The translations under genes and the position numbers were made by a program. Below, one piece after another: positions 2,539 through 14,100 of a DNA stretch of 64,000 bases. The stretch's first letter is position 1; each line of letters starts with the position of its first letter. The stretch is from Sandaracinus amylolyticus (GTDB lineage Bacteria > Myxococcota_A > Polyangia > Polyangiales > Sandaracinaceae): assembly GCF_000737325.1 (NCBI RefSeq), contig NZ_CP011125.1, forward strand, positions 1,426,001-1,490,000, in the 5' to 3' direction. Under the pieces are notes generated by a model, which ran no database searches, was not told the DNA's origin, and worked only from the letters and a program-made list of their open reading frames with translations.

Positions 2539-3669
2539 TCAGCCGAAGATGCGCTGCAGCTCGTAGGGCGGCGTCACCTCGAGCTGATCGTAGCGGCAGC
2601 CCTCGGGACGCTTGTCCTCGCGCCATCGCACGAACGTCGTCGCGTGACGGAACCGCGAGCCCTGGAGGTGGTCGTACTTCACCTCGCAGACGCGCTCGAT
2701 CCGCAGCGGCTCCCACGAGAGGTCCTTGCCTGCGCTCCACCGGCTCTGTCCGCCGGGCATTCGCTGGGTGGATGACATCGCGCTGGCCCATTCACGCCAC
2801 GGATGGGCCTCCAGCGCGCCCTTCCGCAGCGGCTCGAGCTCCTTCGCGAGCTCGCGCCGCTTCGCCATCGTGAACGACGACGTCACGCCGACGTGGTGGA
2901 GCTCGCCCTTCTCGTCGTAGAGCCCGAGCAGCAGCGAGCCCACGAGCTCGTTCTCGCCCTGCTTGTGCCAGCGGAAGCCGGCGACGACGCAGTCGGCGGT
3001 GCGCGCGTGCTTGATCTTCAGCATCGCGCGCTTGCCGGGCTCGTACTTCGCCGTCTCGGGCTTCGCGATCACTCCGTCGAGCCCCGCGCCCTCGAAGCGG
3101 TGGAACCACTCGTCCGCGAGCGCGCGATCACGGGTCGCGGGCGTGAGGTGGATCGGCGCCTTCGCCTTCGCGAGCGCGCGCTCGAGCGCGGCGCGCCGCT
3201 CCGACGTCGGTCGATCGCGCAGATCGCGATCTCCTTCCCACAGCAGATCGAACGCGACGAACGACGCAGGCGTCTCCGCCGCGAGCTTGGCGACGCGCGA
3301 CGCCGCGGGATGGAGGCGCAGCTGCAGCCGATCGAAGTCGAGCCCGGACGCGCTCGCGATCACGATCTCGCCGTCGACGACGCAGCGCTCCGGCAGGTGC
3401 GCCCGGAGCGGCTCGCTCAGCTCCGGGAAGTAGCGATCGAGCGGGCGCAGATCGCGGCTCTGGATGTAGATGCGCTCGCCGTCGCGGAACACGATCGCGC
3501 GGAAGCCGTCCCACTTCGGCTCGTAGATCCAGCCCGCGCCCTCGGGCGGCAGCGCGTCGCCGAGCTTCGCGAGCATCGGCTCGATCGGCGGCGCGATCGG
3601 GAGCCCGTCGGGCGGCGGCGGCGCCTCGACCGAGGTGCGCTTCGAGCGCGGGGCACGTCCGGTGGCCAT
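2539..3669 (-). CDS. ATP-dependent DNA ligase (LigC/LigD ligase-domain type)
   Basis: 376 residues. The nucleotidyltransferase motif I is EPKWDGFR with the AMP-accepting Lys at about 52. Motif III-like VVDGEIV, motif IV DGVIAKPE and motif V LKIKHARTADCVV follow in order, and a C-terminal OB-fold region ends in a ligase-like motif near PPYELQRIFG. It seals DNA nicks using ATP. The size and motifs match stand-alone ligases related to the LigD ligase domain, used in end joining or repair. The ATG overlaps the TGA of the upstream polymerase-like gene (TGATG), so the two are translated together. Confidence 0.93.
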   Translation of the reverse strand: MATGRAPRSKRTSVEAPPPPDGLPIAPPIEPMLAKLGDALPPEGAGWIYEPKWDGFRAIVFRDGERIYIQSRDLRPLDRYFPELSEPLRAHLPERCVVDGEIVIASASGLDFDRLQLRLHPAASRVAKLAAETPASFVAFDLLWEGDRDLRDRPTSERRAALERALAKAKAPIHLTPATRDRALADEWFHRFEGAGLDGVIAKPETAKYEPGKRAMLKIKHARTADCVVAGFRWHKQGENELVGSLLLGLYDEKGELHHVGVTSSFTMAKRRELAKELEPLRKGALEAHPWREWASAMSSTQRMPGGQSRWSAGKDLSWEPLRIERVCEVKYDHLQGSRFRHATTFVRWREDKRPEGCRYDQLEVTPPYELQRIFG

Positions 3670-5066
3670 CAGCTCTCGCTCTTCTTCTTGCGGTTCGCGC
3701 TGCGCGCGCGAGAGACGTCGCGCATGTGCGCGCGCATCGCGTCGGCGCCGCCGTGCGCGGCCCACGGATCGTAGTCGACCTCGAGCGCTTCCTGCGCGGG
3801 ACGAAGCGCCTCGGGCACGTGCTCGAGGTTCACGCGGATGCGCGTCCACGTCGTGTTCTTGCCGCGCATCGCGTCGACGAGGACGTCGGCGGGCGCGAGG
3901 TGCGACGCGGCCTCGGGGTGCTTCGCCTTCCAGCGCTCGAGCGCGGCGAGCGCCTCGTCCTTCTTCGCGGCGCGCGCGATCTCGATCAGCGGCTTCGTGG
4001 ACTGACGACGCCCGGTGCCGGTCGCGCCCTCGCTCGCGCTCTTCGCGGCGCGCTTGCTGCCGGACTTCGCGCGCGAGGGCTGCACGCGCGGCGGCTCGCC
4101 CGGCTGCTTCGCGTAGTGCGGCGGCCACGGCGCGTCGCCTTGTCCTTCGGCTTCCTGCTTCGCCGAGAGCTCGAGCAGCGCGTCGAGCGTGCACCGCGTC
4201 TCGTCGATCTTCGCGTGCGGGTCACCGATGCGCGCGAACCGCGCGGGCATCGTGCGCAGCGTGAAGTCCGCAGGATCGCAGTCGTCGAGCTCGTCCCACG
4301 TCACCGGCGCCGACACGCGCGCGTCGGGCTTCGGCCGCACCGAGTACGCGCTCGCGACGGTGCGATCCTTCGCGTTCTGGTTGTAGTCGAGGAAGACGCC
4401 GTGGCGCTCTTCCTTCCACCACTTGCTCGTCGCGATCGTCGGCGCGCGACGCTCCACCTCGCGCGCGAGCGCGAGCGCGCAGCGACGCACCTGCGAGAAC
4501 GTCCAGCGCGGATGCAGCCGCACGTTCACGTGGATGCCGCGCGAGCCCGACGTCTTCGGCCAGCCCACGAGCCCGAGATCGTCGAGCGTCGCCTTCACGA
4601 CCCGCGCGGTCTCGCGCAGCTGCGACCACGGCACGCCCGGCACCGGATCGAGATCGACGCGCAGCTCGTCGGGATGCTCGAGGTCCTCGGCGCGCACGGG
4701 GTGCGGGTGCAGCTCGATGCACCCGAGGTTCACCATCCACGCGAGCGCGGCGGCATCGCGCGGCACGACCTCTTCCGCGGTCCGACCCGAGGGAAAGCTG
4801 AGCTCGACCGTCTCGATCCACTCGGGCCGCGAGGTCGGCGCGCGCTTCTGCCAGAACACCTCGCCGCCGATCCCGTCGACGTAGCGCACCAGCACGTTGG
4901 GCCGCCCCGCGGCGCCGCGCAGCGCGCCCTCCGCGACCGCGACGTAGTACTCGACGACGTCGAGCTTCGTGATTTTCGCGTCGGGAAAATAGACCTTCGA
5001 CGGATTCGAGATCGCGACCTCGCGGCCTGCGATCTCGAGCACGCGCTTCTCGGTCTTCGATGCCAC
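3669..5066 (-). CDS. LigD-type polymerase/primase domain protein (AEP superfamily)
   Basis: 465 residues, GTG start at 5066. Residues about 1-300 match the LigD polymerase domain: GGEVFWQKRAP, the metal-binding pair RVDLDP (Asp 138 and 140), and SGSRGIHV with the active-site His at about 179, then HGVFLDYNQN. These polymerases fill gaps or add ribonucleotides at DNA ends during non-homologous end joining. A basic Ala/Lys/Ser-rich linker (about 320-365) leads to a C-terminal helical extension without known motifs. The nuclease and ligase domains of full LigD are absent; the ligase is supplied by the coupled downstream gene. No Ku gene is in the window. Confidence 0.9.
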   Translation of the reverse strand: MASKTEKRVLEIAGREVAISNPSKVYFPDAKITKLDVVEYYVAVAEGALRGAAGRPNVLVRYVDGIGGEVFWQKRAPTSRPEWIETVELSFPSGRTAEEVVPRDAAALAWMVNLGCIELHPHPVRAEDLEHPDELRVDLDPVPGVPWSQLRETARVVKATLDDLGLVGWPKTSGSRGIHVNVRLHPRWTFSQVRRCALALAREVERRAPTIATSKWWKEERHGVFLDYNQNAKDRTVASAYSVRPKPDARVSAPVTWDELDDCDPADFTLRTMPARFARIGDPHAKIDETRCTLDALLELSAKQEAEGQGDAPWPPHYAKQPGEPPRVQPSRAKSGSKRAAKSASEGATGTGRRQSTKPLIEIARAAKKDEALAALERWKAKHPEAASHLAPADVLVDAMRGKNTTWTRIRVNLEHVPEALRPAQEALEVDYDPWAAHGGADAMRAHMRDVSRARSANRKKKSES

Positions 5067-7251: not shown

Positions 7252-8205
7252 TCAGCGCTTCGCGCCCATCGCGTCCTCGAGGAGCGCGAGGAAGCGCTGC
7301 GCTGCTCGCCCGAGCGGCACCGTGCGGCGCCACGCGAGGTGCGGGACGAACACGTGCTCGTCGCCCTCGACGAACCCGAGCGGCACGAGGCGCTTGCGTG
7401 CGAGATCCTGCTGCACGAGGTGGAGCGGCATCCATCCGAAGCCGACGCCCGCGAGCAGCGCGAGACGCTTGCTGTGGAAGTCCGAGAGCCGCACGACGTG
7501 CGGCGAGCCGAGCGACAGACGTCCCGGGCCCGGCGGCGCATCGCGTCGCGAGTCCTCGACGACGATCTCGACGTGCTGTGCGAGCTCGGCGCGATCGACC
7601 CGCGCGCGCCGCTTGCGCCCGGCGACCAGCGGGTGATCGCGGTGCGCGCAGAGCCGCAGCACGACGGGCGCGAGCGGGCGCGCGACCAAGCGCTCGTCGC
7701 CGACGAAGTCGAGCACGATCATGAAGTCGGCGCGCACACTCCCAGGCAACGACGTGCGGAAGCGCTCGCGCACGCCCGCGAGGTGCTCGACGCGCAGCTG
7801 CACGTGCGTGGGCAGCCCCTCGCGCGAGAAGCGCCGCAGCGCGCCGAGCAGCGGCGGCAGCGGGAGGAGACCGTCCACGACGATGCCGAGCGTGGGCTCC
7901 CACTCGTCGCGCAGCGTGCGCGCGAGGGTCTCGATCTCGGCGGTGCGCTCGAGCACGCGACGACCCGCCTCGAGCACGCGCCGCCCCGCGACCGTGAGCT
8001 CCGCCTTGTGTCCGGTGCGATCGAAGAGGCGCAACGCGAGATCGCGCTCGAGCGCGGCGATCGCGTAGCTCACGGCCGACGTCGCGCGGCCGAGCTCGCG
8101 CGCCGCGGCGGTGAAGCTGCCCGCGCGATCGATCGCGTCCAGGGCGCGCAGGCCGTCGATCGACTCCAGCGAGACGTTCGACGTTCTTGAACGAGATGTT
8201 CGAAT
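7252..8205 (-). CDS. LysR-family transcriptional regulator
   Basis: 317 residues if started at 8205. The N-terminal winged helix-turn-helix is clear (LRALDAIDRAGSFTAAAREL, then SAVSYAIAALERDL, LRLFDRTGHKAELTVAG) and is followed by a substrate-binding-like effector domain of normal length. It probably regulates the divergent hpd gene in response to an aromatic metabolite. The start is odd: no ATG, GTG or TTG is in frame between the helix-turn-helix and the inside of hpd (TTG 8286, ATG 8334). ATT 8205 lies 6 nt after a TACACT hexamer; CTG 8169 is the other short option. Confidence 0.85.
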   Translation of the reverse strand: MRTSRSRTSNVSLESIDGLRALDAIDRAGSFTAAARELGRATSAVSYAIAALERDLALRLFDRTGHKAELTVAGRRVLEAGRRVLERTAEIETLARTLRDEWEPTLGIVVDGLLPLPPLLGALRRFSREGLPTHVQLRVEHLAGVRERFRTSLPGSVRADFMIVLDFVGDERLVARPLAPVVLRLCAHRDHPLVAGRKRRARVDRAELAQHVEIVVEDSRRDAPPGPGRLSLGSPHVVRLSDFHSKRLALLAGVGFGWMPLHLVQQDLARKRLVPLGFVEGDEHVFVPHLAWRRTVPLGRAAQRFLALLEDAMGAKR

Positions 8206-8225
8206 CCGTGCAGTGTACTCGAACG
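8176..8225. promoter_or_regulatory. Divergent LysR/hpd control region with repeated GTTCGA half-sites
   Basis: Within 50 bp the motif GTTC/GAAC recurs: GTTCGA 8176, the palindrome GTTC-TT-GAAC 8183-8192, GTTCGAA 8198-8204, and TCGAAC 8220-8225. Such clustered inverted half-sites suit a LysR dimer or tetramer. On the minus strand TACACT (8217-8212) could serve as the -10 of the regulator gene. Confidence 0.5.
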
Positions 8226-8266
8226 AGCCACGGGCGTACCTCCGCGAGGAACGGAGGACACGACCG

Positions 8267-9307
8267 ATGAGCGCGAACGAACGCAACCCGCTGGGCCTCG
8301 AAGGCATCGCGTGCCTGGAGTACGGCGCGCCCACCGAGGCGCAGCTCGATGCGCTCGGTGACGTGTTCCGCGCGCTCGGGTTCTCGCGGACACGGCGCCA
8401 CGCGTCGCGCGACGTCGAGCTCTGGTCGCAGCACGGCGTGCGCTTCGTCGTGAGCCGCGATCCGCGCTCGTTCGCGGCGTCGTTCGCGCGCGATCACGGG
8501 CCCTCGATCGCGTCGATGGCGTGGTACGTCGCGGACGCAGAGCACGCGCTGCGCGAGGCGGTGCGCCGAGGCGCGGTGGAGGTCGCGGGCGACCTCGTCT
8601 TCGGTGGCGCGCCCGCGCTCGAGGGGATCGGCGGATCGCGGATCTACCTCGTCGATCGCCGCCGCGCGTGGGAGGAGCGCCACTACGTCGCGCTGGAGCG
8701 GCCCGAGGTGGTGCGCGACCGCGGGTTCCTCGCGATCGATCACCTCACGAACAACGTGCCGCGCGGGACGCTCGGCGCACATCGCGCGTTCTACCGCGAA
8801 GTCTTCGGGTTCGAGGACGTGCGCTCGTTCGAGATCCGCGGGACCGCGACCGGGCTCACGTCGTACGCGCTCCGCTCGCCGTGCGGGACGTTCTGCATCC
8901 CGATCAACGAGGGCAGTGAGGAGCGGAGTCAGATCGAAGAATATCTGCGCGAATATCGCGGCGCGGGCATCCAGCACGTCGCGCTGCTCACGCGCGATCT
9001 GCTCGGCAGTCTCGAGGGGATGCGCGAGTCGGGCGTCGCGACGCTCGACATCGATCCTTCGTATTACGAGGCCGCGTTCGCGCGCGTCCCGGGCGTGCGC
9101 GAGGACCACGAGGCGATCCGCGCGCGCGGTGTGCTCGTCGACGGAGACGAGGAGGGGTATCTCCTCCAGATCTTCACCGAGAACGTGATCGGGCCGATCT
9201 TCTTCGAATTCATCCAGCGCGAGAACCACCGCAGCTTCGGAGAGGGAAACTTCGGCGCGCTCTTCCGCTCGATCGAGCGCGATCAGGAGCGCCGCGGCGT
9301 GGTGTGA
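8267..9307 (+). CDS. hpd: 4-hydroxyphenylpyruvate dioxygenase
   Basis: 346 residues, near the usual 350. It converts 4-hydroxyphenylpyruvate to homogentisate in tyrosine catabolism (and tocopherol-type or pyomelanin routes) using Fe(II) and O2. The 2-His-1-Glu metal site is visible: His 159 in AIDHLTNNV, His 237 in IQHVALL, and Glu 314 in IFFEFIQR. The C-terminus EGNFGALFRSIERDQ is characteristic of the family. GGAGG at 8253-8257 supports ATG 8267. It is transcribed divergently from the LysR gene. Other homogentisate-pathway genes are not in the window. Confidence 0.95.
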   Translation: MSANERNPLGLEGIACLEYGAPTEAQLDALGDVFRALGFSRTRRHASRDVELWSQHGVRFVVSRDPRSFAASFARDHGPSIASMAWYVADAEHALREAVRRGAVEVAGDLVFGGAPALEGIGGSRIYLVDRRRAWEERHYVALERPEVVRDRGFLAIDHLTNNVPRGTLGAHRAFYREVFGFEDVRSFEIRGTATGLTSYALRSPCGTFCIPINEGSEERSQIEEYLREYRGAGIQHVALLTRDLLGSLEGMRESGVATLDIDPSYYEAAFARVPGVREDHEAIRARGVLVDGDEEGYLLQIFTENVIGPIFFEFIQRENHRSFGEGNFGALFRSIERDQERRGVV

Positions 9308-11260: not shown

Positions 11261-12976
11261 TCAGGCGTCGACGCGCACGAAGCGCGCGCCCAGCGCGTCG
11301 GCGATCGCACGGTGCGCGACGTGGGGCGAGATCAGCTCGACGCGCGACACGTCGAGCTTCGCGCGCTCCACCGCGAGCACCGCGATGCCGGGCAGGGGCG
11401 GGCGACACCAGCAGATCGGCGGCCCCGCGGGATGCGCACAGACGTGCAGCTCGACGTCGCGATCGAGCGCGGCGCGCGCGCGCTGCACCGCGAGCGCGGC
11501 GGCCTCGCGCTCGGTCGCGCCGGGGGCCCAGGCGAACGCGAAGAGCGCGGCGTCGGGCGATGCGCGCAGTCGATCGAGCACGTCCTCGCGCGCGATCACG
11601 TCGGCCGAGACGATGCGGCCGGCGCGCGTGTGATCCGGGCGCGCGCGCCGCGTGAACGACACGATCTCGATCGACTCGAAACCCTCCGACGCGCTCGGCG
11701 CCTCGAGCTCGCGGCGGAAGCGGAACAGCGCGAGCGGCGGCACCACGCCCGGATCGTCCTTCGACATCGCGAGGATCTCGTTGGGGCCGAGCAGGTGCCC
11801 GTGCGCCTCGACGATGCGGCGCGCGACGTTCGCCTGCGCGACCTCGATCGGCGTGTCGAGCCACACGCAGCGCACGGGCACGCCGTGCTTCCACGCGCAG
11901 TCGATCACGTCGGCGCGCGACGCGCGGCTCGCGTAGGTGTTGTCGAGCACCACACGAGCGACGCCGTCGCGCAGCGCCGCATCGAGCCCTGGCACGAGCC
12001 CGCGCAGCTTGCCGCCCAGCTCGTCGCGATTGAGCCGCAGGTGACCCTCGAGCTCGCGCGCGACCGTCGACTTCCCCGCGCCCTGGATGCCCATGAGCAC
12101 GACGACCTCGCGTGTGCCGTCCGCGCGCGGCTTGCGCTGCTCGAGGGGCACGCGGATGCGCACGCCCGACGGAATGCGCGCATCGAGCGCCGCGCGATCG
12201 GCGTCGTCGAGCGCGATCGCGGCGGCGCGCGCGAGCTCGAGCGCATGCGCGATCGATCGCGCGCCGGGGATCGGCACGATCGCGGGCGAGAGATCGCGCA
12301 GCCACGCGAGCACGATGATCGCGGCGCTCACGCCGTGCTTCGCCGCGAGCGCGCCGAAGGTCGTGTCGCTCGCGAGCTTCGGCGCGCGCTTGGGCCCGCC
12401 GAGCGGCGAGTGCGCGAGGACGCGGATCCCGTGCTCGACGCAGCGCTCGATCACGCCGCTGCGCAGCACGCTGTCCTGAGCCGGCGCGATCGCGACCTCG
12501 ACCAGCTCGATCGGCGCGACCGCGCGCGCCCGATCGAGCTCGGAGAGGGTCACGTTGCTCAGGCCGATCGCGCGCACCAGACCGGCATCGCGCAGCGCGG
12601 CGAGGGCGCGCGCGCTCGTCTCGATCGGCGTGCGCGGATCGGGTGCGTGCAGGAGCAGGGCGTCGAGCGCGTCGACCCCCAGCGCCGCGCGGCTGCGCTC
12701 GCACGCCTCGCGGAGGTGCGCGACGCGTCCGTCGTTCGCCCACTTGCCGCGGGTGCGGATCAGCCCCGCCTTCGTGACCACGAGCGGCCGCGGCCCCGAC
12801 CACGACGCGAGCGCGCGCGCGACGAGCCGCTCGTTGCCGTGCACGTCGTGCAGATCCCGCCCGTACACGTCGGCGGTGTCGAGCAGCGACACGCCCGCGC
12901 CGAGCGCTGCGCAGAGCACCGCGATCGCGTCCGCCTCGTCGATCTCCGAGAGGCGCATGCACCCGAGGCCGATCAC
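11261..12976 (-). CDS. Aldo-keto reductase fused to a P-loop polynucleotide-kinase-like and HAD-like module
   Basis: 571 residues. Residues 1-275 are an aldo-keto reductase: LLDTADVYG gives Asp and Tyr of the tetrad, VVTKAGL the Lys, LLLHAPD the His, and AIGLSNVT and VPIPGARS follow. Residues about 285-460 are a P-loop kinase with GIQGAGKST (Lys 302) and RLNRDELGG, as in T4 Pnk-type kinases. Residues about 480-571 include CAHPAGPPICWCRPPLPG, recalling the Cys/His zinc loop of GmhB/PNKP-like HAD phosphatases, but I see no DxD nucleophile. GTG 12976 overlaps the Rieske stop codon by 4 nt (GTGA). The fusion partners have no known shared pathway. Confidence 0.88.
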   Translation of the reverse strand: MIGLGCMRLSEIDEADAIAVLCAALGAGVSLLDTADVYGRDLHDVHGNERLVARALASWSGPRPLVVTKAGLIRTRGKWANDGRVAHLREACERSRAALGVDALDALLLHAPDPRTPIETSARALAALRDAGLVRAIGLSNVTLSELDRARAVAPIELVEVAIAPAQDSVLRSGVIERCVEHGIRVLAHSPLGGPKRAPKLASDTTFGALAAKHGVSAAIIVLAWLRDLSPAIVPIPGARSIAHALELARAAAIALDDADRAALDARIPSGVRIRVPLEQRKPRADGTREVVVLMGIQGAGKSTVARELEGHLRLNRDELGGKLRGLVPGLDAALRDGVARVVLDNTYASRASRADVIDCAWKHGVPVRCVWLDTPIEVAQANVARRIVEAHGHLLGPNEILAMSKDDPGVVPPLALFRFRRELEAPSASEGFESIEIVSFTRRARPDHTRAGRIVSADVIAREDVLDRLRASPDAALFAFAWAPGATEREAAALAVQRARAALDRDVELHVCAHPAGPPICWCRPPLPGIAVLAVERAKLDVSRVELISPHVAHRAIADALGARFVRVDA

Positions 12977-14100
12977 ACGACGAGCTGCAGCTCCGCTTCT
13001 TCCTCGGGCGGCGACGCGTCGCCGCGCTCGGCCGCGCGGAGCAAGCGCCAGATGTGCTTGCCGAGCACGTCGATCTCGGTCGACGCGAACTGCTCGCCGC
13101 CGAACTTCTTGATCGTCTCGGTCTGCTGCTTGAGCACCACGGCGTCCTGCTGGAACACGCGGAGCGCGAGCGGCTTCACGAACGGCGCGATCACGTGCCC
13201 GGGCACGCGCGAGCGGAAGCTGACGACCGCGTGGAGCTTCGTGCGGAAGTCCGACACCGGCGTGCACACCGTGTCCGCGAGGAAGTGGTTCTCGGTGCCG
13301 ATGCGGTACTCGACCTGCGCGATCGACGGCAGGATGAAGCGATCGAAGTGCGTGACGATCCCGCCCGAGGGCGAGAGGATCCGCGCGACGAGGCCCGGCG
13401 GGCGCGGCTCGCCGACGTACTCGGCCTCCACGCGATCCTTGCTGCGACGCACCTTCACGGTGAGCGTCACGCCGCGGCTCTCCGAGCGGAACAACCCGCG
13501 ATGCAGGAACGCGGTGTGGGGCACGTCGAGCGCGTTCTCGATCGCCGAGTACATCGTGCCCTCGGCCTCCACGGTCTGGTGCACCGTCGTGTATCCGGGC
13601 TCGCTCGCGAGCGCGAAGCGGTGCGGCTGCTTGCTCGGCATCGGCGCGCCCGGATGCGCGAACGGCGTGCTGTAGACCCAGATCCAACCGTCCTGCTCGA
13701 TCACCGGGAACGCGGGCGCGGTGCGCGCCTTCGCGCCCGGCTCGCCGCAGAACGAGGGGATCGCGCGGCACGCGCCTTCGCGATCGAAACGCCAGCCGTG
13801 GTACGGGCACTCGATCGTGCCCTCCGACGCGACGACCTTCCCGCCCGAGAGTGGGACGTTGCGATGAGGGCAGCGATCGAGCAGCGCCGCGGCGCGTCCG
13901 CGCTCGTCGCGGAAGAGCACGAGCGGCACGTCCTGGATCGTCTCGGCGCGCGGCGCGTCCTTCAGCTCGCTCGCCGCGCACGCGATGAACCACTGATCGG
14001 CGAGCCGCACCACCGACGCGCGTCCCTTCGTGCGCAGGAACGCGAACGCGTCGCGCTCCTTGGTGCCCACGTCGTGTGTCTCGTCCACGCGCTCGGTCAT
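12973..14100 (-). CDS. Rieske [2Fe-2S] oxygenase, terminal component
   Basis: 375 residues. The Rieske cluster is bound by CPHRN and CPYHGW (about residues 77-100). The C-terminal catalytic domain has ENALDVPHTAFLH with the His-His-Asp type mononuclear iron ligands. The arrangement matches ring-hydroxylating or demethylating oxygenases of the PobA/VanA/CAO type that need an external reductase, which is not nearby. The substrate is unknown. The TGA overlaps the GTG of the downstream AKR fusion, so both proteins are made together, perhaps for oxidation followed by carbonyl reduction (inference). Confidence 0.92.
   Translation of the reverse strand: MTERVDETHDVGTKERDAFAFLRTKGRASVVRLADQWFIACAASELKDAPRAETIQDVPLVLFRDERGRAAALLDRCPHRNVPLSGGKVVASEGTIECPYHGWRFDREGACRAIPSFCGEPGAKARTAPAFPVIEQDGWIWVYSTPFAHPGAPMPSKQPHRFALASEPGYTTVHQTVEAEGTMYSAIENALDVPHTAFLHRGLFRSESRGVTLTVKVRRSKDRVEAEYVGEPRPPGLVARILSPSGGIVTHFDRFILPSIAQVEYRIGTENHFLADTVCTPVSDFRTKLHAVVSFRSRVPGHVIAPFVKPLALRVFQQDAVVLKQQTETIKKFGGEQFASTEIDVLGKHIWRLLRAAERGDASPPEEEAELQLVV

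Follow-up and report, generated by a model that had tools for sequence, protein, structure and literature searches.

The window, by which we mean the whole stretch of 64,000 nucleotides analysed here, is part of a 10.3 Mb Myxococcota chromosome. On its reverse strand it carries a gene that joins an aldo-keto reductase (AKR), a kinase and a HAD-like tail in a single reading frame, and next to it a gene for a Rieske non-haem oxygenase (Table 1). As the initial annotation had reported, the two genes overlap by 4 nt (GTGA) on the same strand, and the overlap is also kept in the sister species, G008.

Table 1. Features of the fusion locus, with positions given in the window
Feature	Position	Strand	Size or evidence
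AKR-kinase-HAD fusion gene	11261-12976	(-)	571 aa, GTG start
AKR domain (res 1-268)	12173..12976	(-)	PF00248 E 3.5e-48 (res 2-266); tetrad D33-Y38-K69-H110
Predicted PNKP-type polynucleotide 5'-kinase domain (res 285-446)	11639..12124	(-)	TIGR01663 E 3.3e-16
Degenerate HAD-IIIA/PNK3P-like pseudophosphatase tail (res 447-571)	11264..11638	(-)	end-to-end alignment with intact PNK3P/HAD domains of relatives
Predicted zinc loop CAHPAGPPICWCRPP (res 513-527; C513, H515, C522, C524)	11396..11440	(-)	ligands kept in 38/38 of the degenerate clade
Rieske non-haem oxygenase (VanA_C type) gene	12973-14100	(-)	375 aa; PF00355 E 2.2e-23, PF19112 E 1.3e-12

Domains of the fusion protein

The AlphaFold2 model of the fusion, which takes in residues 285-571 for which a structure prediction had been proposed, is confident over the full length of the protein (mean pLDDT 95, pTM 0.89). 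In a Foldseek search with the full-length model the matches listed were all AKRs, so it is uninformative on the kinase and the tail. Comparison with the orthologue in G008 gave dN/dS ratios of 0.105 for the AKR, 0.129 for the kinase and 0.306 for the tail, which indicates purifying selection on all three parts and argues that the fusion is not due to chance.

AKRs as a class reduce aldehydes and ketones. The initial annotation had read the protein as a triple fusion with an intact-looking AKR, and this is borne out by the Pfam match and by the full D-Y-K-H tetrad, which is kept in 89 of the 89 fused AKRs that we aligned. The best sequence and structure matches of the AKR are standalone bacterial AKRs (AKR13B2, pyridoxal reductase) and perakine reductase. 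These share its fold and tetrad but are unfused, whereas the window AKR falls into its own group with the other fused AKRs.

PNKP-type kinases phosphorylate 5'-OH ends. The second domain had been described as a P-loop kinase of the Pnk type, and the TIGR01663 match confirms it, as do PNKP structures, whose chains are the best matches to the kinase part in a PDB sequence search (E about 1e-14), with the next kinases far weaker. In neither the family profile searches nor the PDB sequence searches did small-molecule kinase families give a match to this region comparable to PNKP. The domain also matches AAA_33 (PF13671, E 1.3e-12, residues 291-387) and has the motifs GIQGAGKST (P-loop, 296-304), RLNRD (314-318), DNT (345-347), the lid arginine R387 and EAPSASEGF; thus the P-loop, predicted RD general base, lid Arg and EAPxxxEGF segment of PNKP-type kinases are all present. 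Across relatives, the P-loop K, the R and D of the NRD motif and the lid R are kept in 99/99 sequences, and the D and T of DNT in 98/99. The protein nevertheless lies outside the full PNKP family (the PNK-3'Pase equivalog), since its TIGR01663 score, which comes from the kinase part only, is 58.8 bits against a curated cut-off of 502.8, and since the phosphatase-kinase order is reversed. We consider that the fusion's kinase probably acts on polynucleotide ends.

In the tail, the initial annotation had noticed a CAHP-type loop like that of HAD phosphatases and no visible nucleophile. Both observations stand, with S457 at the nucleophile position, but the HAD homology runs the whole length of the tail rather than being confined to one loop. 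The other catalytic positions are likewise replaced, by A at motif II, by P526 in place of the motif III Lys and by P at motif IV, where the GD is lost, so that none of the marks of a 3'-phosphatase (DxD, motif II Ser/Thr, motif III Lys, motif IV GD) is present, and the protein has no PNK3P Pfam match. The intact relatives, on the other hand, have the motifs DxDGT, SNQ, C-H...C-C, CRKP/RKP and VGDxxxD, and all 61 that were classed as intact by DxD[GD]T also have the motif III Lys and the motif IV GD. Pfam PNK3P is above cut-off in 4 of the 5 intact bacterial relatives scanned (best E 5.5e-9) and in a huge-phage member, while in pairwise PDB comparison the intact HAD matches GmhB and HisB best, so that its 3'-end specificity is no more than putative. 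GmhB and the HisB-N HAD-IIIA phosphatases are zinc-loop HADs like the intact tail of the relatives; they are metabolite phosphatases, whereas the window's tail is without the catalytic residues.

The degenerate sequences, 38 with the window protein included, form one clade in a tree of the kinase and tail (100/97). Because this tree includes the tail columns, it was repeated with the AKR alone and the kinase alone. The same 38 sequences form a clade in the AKR-only tree (SH-aLRT 99), and in the less resolved kinase-only tree a single degenerate clade is not rejected (p-AU 0.83, with L120 included in the test). L120, from genome G183, is an otherwise intact-type relative that has lost the HAD nucleophile, a loss that appears from its sequence to be independent of the 38-sequence clade. 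Within the clade all four predicted zinc ligands and a Gly are conserved in every member, and a Trp stands at motif II in 33/38, despite the lost catalytic residues; this pattern suggests a conserved pseudophosphatase rather than random decay. The family offers a clean example of a phosphatase active site that is gone while a predicted zinc site is retained across phyla.

Distribution and descent of the fusion

The full fusion was found in 5 of 10 genomes in a family-level search. Among 377 Myxococcota genomes the kinase-tail half is present in 35, of which 29 have it in one frame with an AKR. Of the other six, three (G075, G199, G346) have no AKR with the kinase half and three (G183, G196, G315) are interrupted by contig ends. 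A one-genome-per-species scan found the fusion also in Nannocystis, Sorangium, Minicystis and Enhygromyxa and, outside Myxococcota, in Planctomycetota, Gammaproteobacteria (Lysobacterales), Acidobacteriota, Gemmatimonadota, Verrucomicrobiota, Lentisphaerota, Dormibacterota and Actinomycetota; these taxa are taken from record names, which for MAGs may be in error (two of the loci bear the title Klebsiella pneumoniae MAG). With 29/35 fused in Myxococcota and further fusions in several phyla, the AKR and kinase halves are not mostly separate genes, nor is the fusion restricted to this genome, which is the reverse of the situation that the initial annotation had named as speaking against its reading. 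In the literature searched, which did not include the main survey of RNA-repair architectures, we found no description of an AKR and a polynucleotide kinase in one protein, and AKR-kinase-HAD is a widespread, apparently undescribed family.

In a cleaned AKR tree one branch (SH-aLRT 91) divides the fused AKRs from the standalone ones, so the fusion of AKR to kinase is likely to have arisen once. Standalone AKRs seemed to be interspersed among the fused ones in the first AKR tree, a pattern which came from misaligned rows and long branches and which vanished in the cleaned tree. The conservation of the AKR tetrad alongside that of the kinase residues suggests that both active sites have been maintained together, probably since a single fusion.

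Twelve relatives, the longest members (L106, L111, L122 and nine other loci), have an additional N-terminal domain of 150-165 aa, which in the 377-genome search occurs only within fusion reading frames or frames cut by short contigs. Its model is confident and helical, with one long helix and a bundle of helices. XRE-type HTH proteins account for many of its best PDB matches, which all have E above 1, and the three members scanned have no Pfam match. With standalone AKRs as outgroup, four-domain forms lie on both sides of the first split of the AKR tree. The four-domain form may therefore be ancestral, on a rooting by ten outgroup sequences in a quick tree, and the window protein may have lost both the N-terminal domain and phosphatase activity.

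A plasmid or phage origin of the fusion was considered and rejected: plasmids gave no kinase-half match, and in phages and viral contigs the kinase-HAD pair or just the HAD part occurs, with no AKR seen. In huge phages the pair stands alone, and these PNK-HAD proteins are close relatives of the fusion's kinase-HAD pair. In one 595 kb uncultured phage (LR756511) an intact kinase-HAD gene (L124, 3992-4933 (+)) lies about 1 kb from a gene that by eye resembles NAD synthetase (NadE).

Among known systems, eukaryotic PNKP (TIGR01663) is the closest solved relative of the window kinase, and it shares a PNK3P-type HAD with the intact fusion relatives. The fusion differs from it in having the reversed order of kinase then phosphatase, an AKR in front, a zinc-type loop in the HAD and no FHA domain that we could find, as well as a dead phosphatase in the window's clade. 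T4 Pnkp and the jumbo-phage PNK-HAD proteins have the same order, kinase then HAD, as the fusion but are without an AKR or HTH-like domain, and the phosphatase is intact in the phage proteins examined. Deinococcus DRB0098 HD-Pnk and Clostridium thermocellum Pnkp are bacterial 5'-kinase/phosphatase end healers of unusual architecture (PMC1997131), with an HD or calcineurin-type phosphatase in place of the fusion's HAD and no AKR described.

A possible role in healing strand ends

The best explanation of the window protein, judged from sequence, is that it is a derived member of an end-healing family of the order (HTH-like)-AKR-polynucleotide 5'-kinase-HAD 3'-phosphatase. A function in the end healing of nucleic acid in which the AKR participates in some way has, in our estimate, slightly less than an even chance of being correct.

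End-healing enzymes fix 5'-OH and 3'-phosphate ends. Radicals and enediynes cause C5' oxidation, with 5'-aldehyde ends as a main product. Such ends arise by C5' oxidation of DNA (PMC12564780, PMC3825254), where they persist for days (PMC12564780), and they are the main product of hydroxyl-radical cleavage of RNA; borohydride converts a 5'-aldehyde to a 5'-OH (PMC4227780). According to a review from 2012 (PMC3825254), it is 'essentially unknown' how 5'-aldehyde ends at enediyne breaks are resolved in mammalian cells, and one from 2025 gives only general strand-displacement repair in vitro (PMC12564780). We found no dedicated enzyme for these ends in the literature searched.

In the scheme that we propose, the NAD(P)H-dependent AKR would reduce a carbonyl that oxidative damage has left at a strand terminus. 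In the simplest case it would convert a 5'-aldehyde to a 5'-OH, as the enzymatic counterpart of borohydride, and the kinase, if it does act on polynucleotide ends, would phosphorylate that 5'-OH. In the intact relatives the HAD would take the 3'-phosphate off the opposite side of the break and leave ligatable 5'-P/3'-OH ends, so that intact family members would be able to repair both sides of a C5'-oxidation break. With phosphatase catalysis lost, members of the window's clade are unable to carry out all of these steps; the zinc-loop scaffold of the dead phosphatase has been kept, probably for structure, nucleic-acid binding or partner placement. A terminal aldehyde as the substrate of the AKR is a tentative suggestion. 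Doubtful as a whole is the complete scheme of a bacterial direct-reversal enzyme, whose AKR reduces 5'-aldehydes and whose kinase, with the 3'-phosphatase in relatives, restores ligatable ends, the phosphatase of the window clade being a zinc-binding pseudo-enzyme. Because a reductase for aldehydes and ketones is joined to a probable strand-end kinase in one conserved fusion, such a direct-reversal route is open to test with a single purified protein.

AKRs are promiscuous toward small carbonyls, and the same logic of carbonyl to alcohol to phosphate is equally valid for a metabolite. The AKR could turn a small carbonyl into an alcohol and the kinase could phosphorylate it, with the GmhB/HisB-like HAD of the relatives removing or editing the phosphate, as the closeness of the intact HAD in PDB to D,D-heptose bisphosphate and histidinol-phosphate phosphatases would suggest. 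No DNA- or RNA-repair gene is conserved beside the fusion in 97 loci, some of which are duplicates of one another, which counts against end healing and also favours this route, but a conserved metabolic operon is likewise absent from them; in fact no operon partner is conserved across lineages, and with no recurrent gene family beside it the fusion looks self-sufficient. The kinase is PNKP-like, without a comparable match among small-molecule kinases, the intact HAD is PNK3P in Pfam, and the modelled HTH-like domain of the 12 longest members gives a weak hint of nucleic acid. We therefore regard the small-molecule route as unlikely.

AKR folds elsewhere serve as redox-coupled subunits, and the Kv-beta AKR subunits gate channels. 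By analogy, the AKR of the fusion could sense NADPH or redox state, or act as an allosteric module, and in that way gate the polynucleotide kinase without itself processing nucleic acid. The AKR positions conserved in the fusions, which are mostly generic and show no clear nucleic-acid-binding signature, would fit such a role, but the full tetrad in every fused AKR across phyla is stricter than a pure sensor needs, and we think a sensor distinctly unlikely.

End healing, the reading preferred here, leaves a choice between DNA and RNA. The RNA-repair link raised in the initial annotation was a plausible direction, as the nearest families are end-healing enzymes, but the sequence holds nothing that decides between the two. 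A role on RNA, for example at ends left by oxidation or by ribotoxin cleavage, with the aldehydes of oxidised RNA ends as the target of the AKR, would suit the prevalence of 5'-aldehydes after hydroxyl-radical cleavage (PMC4227780) and the interpretation of the kinase-HAD pairs of jumbo phages as RNA end-healing enzymes (PMC7824862). Against it, the kinase's closest solved relatives, the PNKPs of eukaryotes, are said to use DNA only (PMC1997131), and RNA as the specific target strikes us as rather improbable.

Neighbouring genes

The initial annotation had coupled the Rieske oxygenase to the fusion in one modification pathway and had asked whether the two always occur together. The gene pair is confined to the window genus, where it is conserved, with its shared strand and overlap, in two species. 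At the other Myxococcota fusion loci examined there is no Rieske gene in the flanks, which reached about 9 kb at most and less near the end of a contig, and Rieske orthologues, 50-72% identical, are unlinked in four fusion-bearing relatives (G005, G007, G190, G242) and are also present in four relatives that lack the fusion (G001, G002, G148, G239). On the evidence of about 40 Myxococcota loci and of 56 related genomes, coupling is rejected as a general rule, a joint pathway is very improbable, and we judge the Rieske gene to be a neighbour and not part of a conserved system.

An anti-phage defence system was also considered and set aside, there being no PADLOC model match. Elsewhere in the window, an HPPD-like dioxygenase gene (8267-9307 (+)) adjoins a divergent LysR regulator gene (7252-8334 (-)). 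The only repair neighbour noticed by eye is an Fpg-like DNA glycosylase gene in genome G082 (L090/L189), 30 nt upstream of the fusion on the same strand. At a distance of 6 kb from the fusion the window also carries a split LigD (2539-5066 (-)), made up of an ATP-dependent DNA ligase gene and an adjoining LigD prim-pol gene, the latter syntenic in G008; Ku is encoded elsewhere in the window's genome. Ku showed no overall co-occurrence with the kinase half (8/35 versus 61/342 genomes, p 0.49), and it is enriched in the degenerate-class genomes (8/19, p 0.012) on a post hoc split uncorrected for kinship or genome size.
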